A program made the translations under genes and the position numbers. Positions 46,604 to 49,405 of a DNA stretch of 49,540 nucleotides are shown here, piece by piece. Below the pieces are notes generated by a model, which ran no database searches, was not told the DNA's origin, and saw only the letters and a list, made by a program, of their open reading frames with translations. The DNA lies in contig MHWN01000015.1 in the NCBI GenBank assembly GCA_001825395.1, forward strand, positions 1-49,540, given 5' to 3'. This stretch comes from Candidatus Zambryskibacteria bacterium RIFCSPLOWO2_02_FULL_39_26 (GTDB lineage: Bacteria > Patescibacteriota > Minisyncoccia > Phycocordibacterales > DATDWN01). Each line of letters opens with the position of its first letter. Positions within the stretch are counted from its first letter, which is position 1.

Positions 46604-47638
46604 TTATTTTTCTTCTGCTTCGCGGATTACATCCAAATCTGAAAGTTTTATAATCACATTTTGTAATTTATGAGCATTACCGTGTTTTAACATACCAAAA
46701 TAAGATCGAACGGACTCTGGTTTTAAATTGTTACTTAAATTCTTCAACATTCTCCTCTTAGTCGTTGTCCTCAAAACTCTGTGATGTGGAAAATTAACCC
46801 ATCCAAGAAAATCCACTCCAGAGGCGAGGGTTTTGATACTGATTTTATTTGGATGCAAATTGAGTTTCAGGTGATTCTCCAGAAATACTTTGATATATCG
46901 CAGTAAATTATTTAGTGTGGTTTTGTTTTGATCTAGGATTACAAAATCGTCAGCGTAACGAATGTAATATTTGACTTTCAGTCTGTGCTTTACATATTGG
47001 TCAAACTCATTCATGTAGATATTCACTAGAAGTTGAGAGGTGAGGTTGCCTAGTGGTAGCCCAATACACATATCAGTCATGACTGATATGTGTATTGGGG
47101 TGTGGAAGCTGTCTATTACTCTGTCGAGTAACCAGAGGGTGTCTTGGTCTAGCCTATTGTACTTGAGTATTTCTTTGAGAGTCTGGTGGTCGATGCTGGC
47201 AAAGAACTTCCTGACATCACACTTTAGTACCCAGCACTGTTTAGTGTTGTTTTGGGAGACTTTACAACTAAACTCTCTAAACCTATCCATTGCTCGGTGA
47301 GTTCCCTTCCATTTACGACAAGAGTAGGAGTCGTGGATGAACTTCTGGTCAAAGTATGGATACAAAACTCTATAGATCGCGTGGTGAAGCAATCTATCCC
47401 TAACACTGGCTTTGCTGATGTTGCGAGGTTTGGGGTCGGAAATGTTGAAGTGGGTATATCCGCCGTGGGTGTAGGATTTATCTAGTAAATCGGAATGTAA
47501 TTTATAAATATTTTCTGACAAATGTAGAGAAAACTCCAAAACATCTAGTTTTTGTTTTTTGCCTTTAATAAATTCATCCCAAGCTAAGAATAAATTTTCC
47601 ATAGATGATATTTCTTTGAAGAAGTCTTGTTTATTCAT
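46604..47638 (-). CDS. Diversity-generating retroelement reverse transcriptase
   Basis: 344 residues. DPKPRNISKASVRDRLLHHAIYRVLYPYFD (quoted in part) is the fingers region, SYSCRKWKGTHRAMDRF the following block, LPLGNLTSQ the DGR-type LGxxxSQ motif (group II intron RTs have QGxxxSP), and YYIRYADDFVIL the catalytic YADD. It copies the template repeat RNA into mutagenised cDNA. A 40-bp palindrome is translated just before the LPLGNLTSQ motif, adding PIHISVMTDMCIG. The gene is divergent from avd. Confidence 0.93.
   Translation of the reverse strand: MNKQDFFKEISSMENLFLAWDEFIKGKKQKLDVLEFSLHLSENIYKLHSDLLDKSYTHGGYTHFNISDPKPRNISKASVRDRLLHHAIYRVLYPYFDQKFIHDSYSCRKWKGTHRAMDRFREFSCKVSQNNTKQCWVLKCDVRKFFASIDHQTLKEILKYNRLDQDTLWLLDRVIDSFHTPIHISVMTDMCIGLPLGNLTSQLLVNIYMNEFDQYVKHRLKVKYYIRYADDFVILDQNKTTLNNLLRYIKVFLENHLKLNLHPNKISIKTLASGVDFLGWVNFPHHRVLRTTTKRRMLKNLSNNLKPESVRSYFGMLKHGNAHKLQNVIIKLSDLDVIREAEEK
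47060..47099. repeat. 40-bp perfect palindrome inside the RT gene
   Basis: Two 20-bp arms beginning CCCAATACACATATCAGTCA, no loop. Read in frame as PIHISVMTDMCIG between the fingers region and the LGxxxSQ motif. Confidence 0.9.
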
Positions 47639-47685
47639 GATAGAATATTCCTATTACACATAATTAGAACACAAAATGACAAATA

Positions 47686-48069
47686 ATGTTGCCCCCCCCC
47701 CGAGAAGCACCGAAGGTATTGTTAAAGGAGAAAGAAGTTTATAGATTTTGGATTAAACTTCACAGAGATTTTCCGAAAGTTGAGAGATTGGGCATTGGAA
47801 AAAAGATTGAGCAGAGTTTTTTAGACTTATTGGAACTGACTTTTACTTCAGTATATCTAGCTCCAGAGCAAAAAGTAGTGGTTTTAGGTAGAGCTATAGC
47901 AAAACTTGATAATCTAAAATTTTTTATGCAACTTGCTTGGGAAGCCCGACTCATACACACAGAAAACTATGCTATCATTTCAACAAACTTGGAAGAAATC
48001 GGTATGATGCTTTGGGGGTGGAGAAAGGGCTTGCAAGAAAAACTGCAACAAAAAACTCCCACAAAATAG
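47686..48069 (+). CDS. avd: DGR accessory variability determinant (Avd)
   Basis: 127 residues in this frame. From LLKEKEVYRFWIKLHRDFPKVERLGIGKKIEQSFLDLL (quoted in part) onward it follows the Avd four-helix bundle that binds the RT and template RNA. The 5' end is uncertain: a run of ten C (47692-47701) follows the ATG at 47686. An alternative ATG at 47676 would be in frame only with nine or twelve C. The stop codon lies in the loop of the TR terminator hairpin. Avd is required for mutagenic retrohoming in the phage BPP-1 model. Confidence 0.85.
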   Translation: MLPPPREAPKVLLKEKEVYRFWIKLHRDFPKVERLGIGKKIEQSFLDLLELTFTSVYLAPEQKVVVLGRAIAKLDNLKFFMQLAWEARLIHTENYAIISTNLEEIGMMLWGWRKGLQEKLQQKTPTK

Positions 48070-48078: not shown

Positions 48079-48092
48079 AAAAACAATAGTTT

Positions 48093-48199
48093 CGGGAGAA
48101 CACCTGGTTGCCATCGTTCCACTCGTTCTCGTCCGTGGTCGGATTGGCGTTGAAGTTCCAACCACCATCGTTCCAGTAGACGTTCACGTTGCGAAGAAC
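48093..48199 (-). repeat. DGR template repeat (TR)
   Basis: 107 bp aligned without gaps to the variable repeat at 48565-48671. On the minus strand it reads in the target frame as LRNVNVYWNDGGWNFNANPTT, rich in AAC codons as expected for adenine mutagenesis. The frame continues upstream as ANGVLDGFLYETSV, the remains of a lectin-like target end. Confidence 0.93.
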
Positions 48200-48302
48200 G
48201 GATGTTTCGTACAAAAAACCATCCAGGACACCGTTCGCTAAAATATAACGAGCTGAATTTTATTCGGGACATATAAGTCCGCCAGTTTCTTGTACCAAGT
48301 TT

Positions 48303-48362
48303 TGTTATTTTTTGAAAAATATATAACCCACTCTTGTGTAAGACTTATCCAACACAACTCTC
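48303..48362 (-). pseudogene. Fragment of a second reverse transcriptase gene
   Basis: Minus strand reads VVLDKSYTRVGYIFFKK, close to DLLDKSYTHGGYTHFNI near residue 50 of the intact RT. The DNA agrees at roughly 60 percent of positions over 45 bp by eye. Both sides are frame-broken. It is probably the trace of an older RT copy. Confidence 0.45.
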
Positions 48363-48468
48363 GAGATATACATCCTAAAACCATGACACGAAAGCCGTAA
48401 CCGTCGCGTAACACATAGCTTCAAATATATTATATCAAAAATTTTTGAAATATTTTTATATAAAAAAT

Positions 48469-48514
48469 GTGACCCTCTACTTTCTGCAGGATTGCAGAGA
48501 AAGCAAAGGGTCAC
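48469..48514 (-). terminator. Terminator of the DGR target gene
   Basis: GTGACCCT/AGGGTCAC outer stem with inner CTTTCT/CTGCAG pairing, then ATTTTTT on the minus strand. It lies ~40 bp after the target stop codon. Confidence 0.75.
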
Positions 48515-48546
48515 AGTGTCAGAGAGTCAAGGGGTCAGAAGGTCAA
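48507..48546. repeat. Five octamers with a fixed GTCA core
   Basis: GGGTCACA, GTGTCAGA, GAGTCAAG, GGGTCAGA, AGGTCAAA: an exact 8-bp period with GTCA at the same phase. Placed between the terminator hairpin and the target stop codon, next to the variable repeat. Confidence 0.8.
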
Positions 48547-48551
48547 AGTAT

Positions 48552-49196
48552 CTAGGCGACCTTGCGGGAGAACACCTGGCCGCCACCGATCCACTCGCCC
48601 TCGCCCGTGGTCGGAAAGGCGTAGAAGTACCAACCACCATCGAACCAGAAGACGTACACGCGGCGAAGAACATCATCCTTGTCACAAACATAGAAGATGT
48701 TCGCCCAACCGTTGTTGAGCAGGACACCCGCTTCGCCGTTTGGTTGGAGAGAGGTCAGGTGGAAAATCTCCGCGAGAGAGGTTTCCGCCTTGCTGTCTCC
48801 ACCCAAGAAAGCGATGATGACCGCGTCCTTGGCGCGTTGGATGAGCTTGCCGTAGCCGATCCGCGATGGAGCAACATTCGTCTCGGTCTTGCCGAGAAAC
48901 CAGTTGCTGAAGTTCGAGCCGAAACCCGAAATCTTCACAGCGACTTCTGGCGAGGTGTTCTGAATGAACTTTTCCGAGGCGACGAAGTTCGTCACACCCG
49001 GGAAAGCCACCTCGCCGAGATTCTGGAGAAGCGACACCACGACCTTCCCATATCCACGAAGGATGGGAAGAATCTGGGCGACCATGTCTCCAGAAGAGAG
49101 GGACTTGATGTCGGCGTTGTTCCCGCCGTTCCTCTCCCACGCGTACTTCAGTTCCGCCGCTTGCACAACGTCGAGGCCGAACGTGTCATTTGACAT
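48552..49196 (-). CDS. DGR target protein with C-terminal variable lectin-like region
   Basis: 214 residues. The N-terminal ~45 residues (ELKYAWERNGGNNADIKSLSSGDMVAQILPILRGYG, quoted in part) resemble a small domain common in CPR proteins of unknown role. The C-terminal ~75 residues (NNGWANIFYVCDKDDVLRRVYVFWFDGGW...) resemble the C-type-lectin fold used by DGR targets. Residues ~176-211 are the variable repeat. No signal peptide or membrane segment is visible, so the binding partner may be intracellular or it may leave by another route. RBS AAGGA. GC-rich. A near-consensus promoter lies upstream. Confidence 0.9.
   Translation of the reverse strand: MSNDTFGLDVVQAAELKYAWERNGGNNADIKSLSSGDMVAQILPILRGYGKVVVSLLQNLGEVAFPGVTNFVASEKFIQNTSPEVAVKISGFGSNFSNWFLGKTETNVAPSRIGYGKLIQRAKDAVIIAFLGGDSKAETSLAEIFHLTSLQPNGEAGVLLNNGWANIFYVCDKDDVLRRVYVFWFDGGWYFYAFPTTGEGEWIGGGQVFSRKVA
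48565..48671 (-). repeat. DGR variable repeat (VR)
   Basis: 107 bp inside the 3' end of the target gene. Relative to the TR it differs at 18 positions, all at template adenines on the minus strand (for example AAC to TAC, TTC, CGC and GGC). The GC-rich end CAGGTGTTCTCCCG is identical in TR and VR and is the likely initiation-of-homing site. Confidence 0.94.
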
Positions 49197-49274: not shown

Positions 49275-49337
49275 GGTTAACCACAGCAGAGACCCTTCAA
49301 CTTTGTTCAAGGTAAAAAGTCTCTGCTGTGACTAACC
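49275..49337 (-). promoter_or_regulatory. Long hairpin in the leader of the DGR target mRNA
   Basis: 12-bp perfect stem CACAGCAGAGAC/GTCTCTGCTGTG, extended by GGTTA/TAACC across an internal loop and by an inner CTTCAAC/GTTCAAG stem. It lies between the promoter and the start codon in a ~170-nt leader. Confidence 0.7.
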
Positions 49338-49375: not shown

Positions 49376-49405
49376 ATTATACCACCTTTGATACCATTCT
49401 GTCAA
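49376..49405 (-). promoter_or_regulatory. Near-consensus promoter of the DGR target
   Basis: Minus strand TTGACA (49405-49400) and TATAAT (49381-49376) with an 18-bp spacer. This is the best promoter in the window. Confidence 0.8.

Follow-up and report, generated by a model that had tools for sequence, protein, structure and literature searches.

A diversity-generating retroelement of Patescibacteria with a structured RNA 5' of its template repeat and a candidate phase switch at the start of avd

In the diversity-generating retroelement (DGR) of BPP-1, Avd is essential for retrohoming (PMC12875486, PMC10053308) and the spacer between the template repeat (TR) and the reverse transcriptase (RT) gene, brt, folds and recruits bRT-Avd (PMC12875486); conserved structure 3' of TR has also been described in a review (PMC8867640). 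Among the DGRs surveyed by Roux et al. 2021, clade 2 is restricted to Patescibacteria/CPR, and a term search of the main text of that paper returned no mention of avd, orientation or IMH (PMC8144416). For DGRs in general, it is an open question by what means a useful variant is protected from the cell's own targeted mutator.

The stretch of DNA analysed here (the window, 49,540 nucleotides) takes up the whole of contig C15 in a genome of 611 kb and 28 contigs, from a tiny bacterium of parasitic type whose relatives with named records are Nomurabacteria, Vogelbacteria, Harrisonbacteria, Moranbacteria and their kin. We identified in it a chromosomal DGR of Patescibacteria, an element of known kind, on the basis of an RT, a neighbouring Avd and a target protein with a C-terminal variable repeat (VR) (Table 1). 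An RT motif, a TR/VR pair with differences confined to A, a VR at the 3' end of the target gene and Avd were all found. The RT carries GLPLGNLTSQ and YADD, in agreement with the DGR-type motifs (I/L/V)GxxxSQ and YxDD, and its best match among solved structures is 8ub7, which we take to be the BPP-1 DGR RT. Four DGR-type RTs are present in this genome, that of the window and those of loci L133, L134 and L135.

Table 1. Coordinates of the features of the DGR cassette, in window positions.
Feature	Coordinates	Strand	Evidence
DGR reverse transcriptase, 344 aa	46604..47638	-	RVT_1 E 2.5e-23; phrog_1423 E 2.7e-103; PDB 8ub7 E 5.4e-37
avd	47676..48069	+	NCBIfam Avd E 1.4e-14 (below that model's curated cut-off); PHROG Avd E 1.4e-15; Pfam bAvd 1.7e-9
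Poly-C tract (10 C) at avd 5' end, candidate phase switch	47692..47701	+	Recurrence, frames
Terminator-like hairpin and T-run directly 3' of TR, overlapping avd stop codon	48050..48078	-	Recurrence versus shuffles
Template repeat (TR)	48090..48199	-	Ungapped machine alignment
Invariant TR 3' stretch, IMH*-like (48092, probable fixed A/C mark)	48093..48107	-	TR/VR alignment and recurrence in relatives
Structured 5' leader of template RNA, helices P1-P7	48205..48425	-	Covariation; z -3.3; covariance model R1
Helix P5, 3' strand, end 9 nt before TR	48209..48220	-	12/12 pairs with 48284-48295
Helix P5, 5' strand	48284..48295	-	12/12 pairs with 48209-48220
Extended -10 (TGATATAAT) before TR RNA	48429..48434	-	Recurrence in loci
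Terminator-like hairpin of target gene	48469..48514	-	Sequence
Degenerate 8-nt-period array after VR	48508..48547	-	Seen in most loci behind VR but not behind TR
Target (variable) protein gene, 214 aa, C-terminal VR	48552..49196	-	ORF
Variable repeat (VR)	48562..48671	-	Ungapped machine alignment
Sigma-70 promoter of target gene, TTGACA-18-TATAAT	49376..49405	-	12/12 consensus match

The window was compared with 84 related loci (85 with the window itself). In the window, avd lies 3' of TR on the strand opposite to that of RT, TR and target gene; avd is opposite to RT in all 80 loci that have it, and every locus with a placed TR has avd between TR and RT, bar the calls at L053 (an extended ORF) and L079 (a second TR/VR pair elsewhere). 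Five loci assigned to the phylum only (L164-L168) likewise have divergent avd and RT. As read from these sequences, the layout is phylum-wide and consists of a target gene with VR, a template RNA gene, an opposite-strand avd converging on TR, and RT. The RT gene of the window also contains a perfect 40-bp palindrome (47060-47099), in frame in the variable loop before GLPLGNLTSQ, of which no second copy was found in its own genome; other RTs have different palindromes in the same loop (L060 and L075 share one), in the manner of in-frame palindromic inserts.

The target protein, whose gene has its stop codon 7 bp beyond the end of VR, matched no family in NCBIfam, PHROG or Pfam searches, had homologs in 15 of 61 relatives, and was found on no viral contigs. 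Its AF2 model (pLDDT 88) gave as its top two PDB fold matches the C-type lectin MCL, both weak (E 0.19-0.41, TM 0.29/0.39). A 29-bp inverted repeat (79%) at 49275-49337, in the 5' UTR between promoter and start codon, is a possible regulator site. The array that follows VR is CTTNGNNY-like (also in the post-VR regions of L053-L136); in some loci (L125, L133 and L113) the fold is ladder-like, short stems alternating with TT internal loops, and in others it is not. When the region after VR was tested for a BPP-1-style hairpin or cruciform, mean folding z was -2.4 over 75 loci, with none clear in the window, and a post-VR hairpin as a general rule was rejected since only about half of the loci fold better than chance.

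TR and VR are 110 bp each, with a spacing of 472 and 84% identity. According to the original prediction, two 107-bp repeats differ at 18 positions, all of them template adenines. Ungapped machine alignment bears out both the total and its confinement to A of the minus-strand TR, with changes to T, G and C as claimed (A>T, nine; A>G, seven; A>C, two) and none at the 80 C, G or T sites of TR; the extent needs correcting, since 17 differences lie within 48093-48199/48565-48671 and the 18th lies at 48092/48564. A machine search of 48565-48671 for non-adenine differences, several of which would have spoken against the prediction, found none, and the spectrum departs strongly from random expectation (hypergeometric P = 3.6e-13 for 17 of 17 on 27 A among 107 sites). 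Thirteen codons of the gene frame are altered from TR to VR, 12 of them non-synonymously, the sole synonymous one being CGA>CGC at 48092. Among TRs whose end matches CGAAA, 20 of 23 have C at the first A in VR (TR CGAAA > VR CGCAA), although A>C makes up only 18% of all A changes (232/1308). Since the change at 48092 is synonymous and recurs in the TR/VR pairs of relatives despite the rarity of A>C, it is probably a fixed homing-site difference, so that mutagenesis probably accounts for 17 differences rather than 18. A search by script that tolerated changes at A found TR/VR pairs in 77 of the 85 loci, window included, a figure for recurrence rather than an unbiased spectrum because the search itself demands A-only differences; no further VR for the window TR was found elsewhere in its own genome. 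The RT, Avd, TR and VR at the 3' end of the target gene thus support the proposed adenine-directed, error-prone reverse transcription. The A-only pattern is correct and, taken alone, ordinary; the element to which it belongs is a variant.

Recent action of the DGR, also part of the original prediction, can be upheld only in a relative sense, with no absolute date. The TRs of the window and of L136, from the same genus, differ at 13 of 72 A-free sites, whereas TR and VR within a locus differ at none (0/80 in the window, 0/79 in L136). This divergence between species, set against none within a locus, indicates that the window VR was recopied from TR after the window and L136 species split. Avd as assembled is not in frame with its likely start, so the cassette may be off at present.

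Between the target gene terminator and TR lie approximately 220 nt of conserved sequence, in which covariation identifies a structured RNA directly 5' of TR. Its 12-bp helix P5 forms 10-12 of 12 pairs in 75 of 75 loci, with 72 different 5' strands, and in 62 of the 75 the 3' end of P5 falls between -3 and +5 nt relative to the point where TR starts. Because P5 was chosen in each locus as the best pairing, and simple shuffles mostly give 9-10 of 12 pairs, the weight rests on the covariation test of the alignment. In 42 aligned loci, 93.7% of cells are paired compared with 71.6% when shuffled, and double-change cells number 250 compared with 69, values that 0 of 500 shuffles reach in either case; pairing falls to 32-38% when the partner is slid by one column. 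The 5' half of the leader is 97.2% paired (81.2% shuffled), and the window leader alone folds with z -3.3. Covariance model R1 matches the window at 48206-48302 (74.1 bits), all four DGRs of its own genome, 102 of 297 genomes of the order and 37 of 192 in the phylum sample. No Rfam family matched the leader in a search run on eight related loci, a set apart from the window copy. A match at 48089-48253 had suggested that TR belongs to a degenerate second copy of the target gene, a reading that was rejected because the part 5' of TR is structured RNA.

An extended -10 occurs in 43 of the 75 loci (6% when shuffled), at about -141 from P5, and a terminator-like hairpin follows TR in 62 of 75 (11% shuffled) at a median of 12 nt, that of the window being the strongest in its region. 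In L154, L155 and L160, leader RNA, TR and VR are kept and no RT was found in the genome, which argues that the leader belongs with TR. One of these RT-less genomes is estimated to be 100% complete; their cassettes are either decayed or served in trans.

A simple repeat lies at the start of avd in 79 of 80 loci, L122 being the sole one without it. The repeat is poly-C of 7-14 in 68 loci, and (CT)n in nine and (CA)n in one at the same place, lengths to be read with the proviso that MAG assembly can miscount homopolymers. In L087 an assembly N gap flanked by C6 on both sides lies inside the tract, and the near-identical L085 has C9; this gap is the one hint of reversible tract-length change within a population. 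Such runs are concentrated at this position: of the 69 C/G runs of at least 8 in 981 kb of locus sequence, 68 lie near the avd/RT start, as do 10 of 11 (CT) runs of at least 5 and the sole (CA) run of at least 6, and in the whole of the window's own genome C runs of at least 10 occur only at the four avd starts. Two of five loci sampled elsewhere in the phylum have C10 near the divergent start and a third has C9. The three further DGRs of this 0.6-Mb genome (L133, L134 and L135, on contigs C16, C25 and C7) each have leader RNA and an avd C-tract.

A related start peptide, M(S/T)QLNFHN, is encoded upstream of the tract in many loci. In a comparison between species (one genome per species), the first open ATG was in frame with the Avd body in 14 of 64 loci and one base off in either direction in 29 and 21. 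Tested against equal thirds, these counts are near random (p 0.06-0.07), as slippage would predict, but neutral drift of an unused start would give such a split too. In the window, the upstream ATG (47676) is out of frame with Avd and meets a stop after 22 codons, and one C fewer in the tract would bring this likely start into frame; among the genome's four avd genes, the first open ATG is in frame in L133 alone. Since Avd is essential for retrohoming in BPP-1, an out-of-frame avd should leave the DGR off, and the C10 allele of the window is probably OFF now, after a probable ON state in the past. Some Avd could still be made from an inner ATG (47686) that is in frame. These tracts and frames suggest that Avd, and with it hypermutation, is most likely phase-variable.

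Taken as a whole, these observations are in our judgement best explained, with good confidence, by a phylum-wide DGR layout, a structured template RNA and a poly-C-switched avd. We also favor, somewhat less firmly, a two-layer mutator across Patescibacteria, in which a contingency tract in avd randomly switches hypermutation in single cells and a stand-alone template RNA has a terminal helix that marks the cDNA end. The template RNA gene would comprise its own promoter, the structured 5' leader, TR and the terminator-like hairpin. RT with Avd would copy TR RNA with errors opposite adenines, the leader presumably helping to recruit RT and Avd, and P5, usually ending within 5 nt of TR, would stop cDNA synthesis and so set the 5' border of VR. 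The cDNA would then replace VR upstream of its invariant 3' end. Poly-C slippage would bring avd into frame in some cells and out of it in others, which would confine hypermutation to a sub-population, and the window VR would preserve the trace of a previous ON state.

Runs of C or G are known to be slippery, and the tract could instead be a programmed slippage site, for RNA polymerase or the ribosome, that yields a fixed fraction of Avd from any allele; constant slip would permit both the conservation of Avd and the fact that most assembled alleles are out of frame. However, +1 and -1 shifts would both be needed, in different loci (29 versus 21, with 14 in frame), which led us to reject one programmed frameshift at the C run as the only cause. 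In some loci, moreover, (CT)n or (CA)n stands where the C run would be, an exchange that slippage by single bases would not favor. No other observation argues as strongly for a selected switch over a fixed programmed frameshift as this interchange of repeat types, and we regard programmed slippage as unlikely. On the divergent strand, the tract also precedes the RT start by 54-63 nt, where its spacing rather than the avd frame could tune transcription from the divergent RT/avd promoters; its position inside the avd frame, between the related start peptide and the Avd body, makes this quite improbable.

The leader, for its part, could be a cis-regulatory RNA (e.g., riboswitch-like) rather than part of the template RNA, as its own -10 and lack of an Rfam match would allow, but in most loci only a few nt, if any, separate it from TR, with TR and terminator then following on the same strand, and it stays with TR and VR in the three genomes with no detectable RT, so we give this alternative little credence. 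Hardly any probability attaches to TR and VR having arisen when a gene fragment was duplicated in the ordinary way and the copies then mutated apart, or to their differences being A-to-G deaminase damage. Although TR is near the target gene and 84% identical to VR, the unchanged non-A sites (0/80) and the change of A to all three bases refute this reading, and RT and Avd adjoin the repeats in a pattern that recurs in 77 of 85 loci.

Literature near the topic contained no repeat-controlled avd, opposite-strand avd or 5' leader RNA joined to DGRs, some subscription papers being outside the search. These three features are apparently undescribed, a novelty that is provisional; Paul et al. 2017 reportedly also described CPR DGRs and may already have noted the opposite-strand avd. 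Two features of the variant, the avd repeat tract and the structured template RNA, would interest specialists. Phase-variable Avd, if true, would answer for a whole phylum how a good variant is preserved: most cells would keep it and a few would explore. With the leader RNA as a search model, template repeats could be located where RT is absent, and for work on mechanism and engineering it offers the mirror image of the BPP-1 spacer.

In comparison with the BPP-1 DGR (mtd-avd-TR-brt), the window shares RT, Avd, TR, a C-terminal VR, A-only mutagenesis and an invariant homing end after the last mutated A. All parts of the BPP-1 element are co-directional with avd 5' of TR, whereas here avd is on the opposite strand and 3' of TR; BPP-1 has a 144-nt spacer between TR and brt, whereas here a terminator-like hairpin follows TR immediately. 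The structured RNA here is 5' of TR, and R1 has no match in BPP-1; likewise, BPP-1 avd is without a repeat tract, unlike avd in 79 of the 80 loci. With clade 2 of Roux et al. the element shares its occurrence as a cellular DGR in CPR genomes and targets without recognisable domains, a likeness rather than a placement in the tree. Finally, the tract resembles the contingency loci (poly-C/G) of Neisseria, Campylobacter and Bordetella in having a homopolymer or dinucleotide repeat near the coding start and all three frames among relatives. Those loci gate surface structures, whereas the gene that would be gated here, judging from differences between species, is the helper of a targeted mutator.
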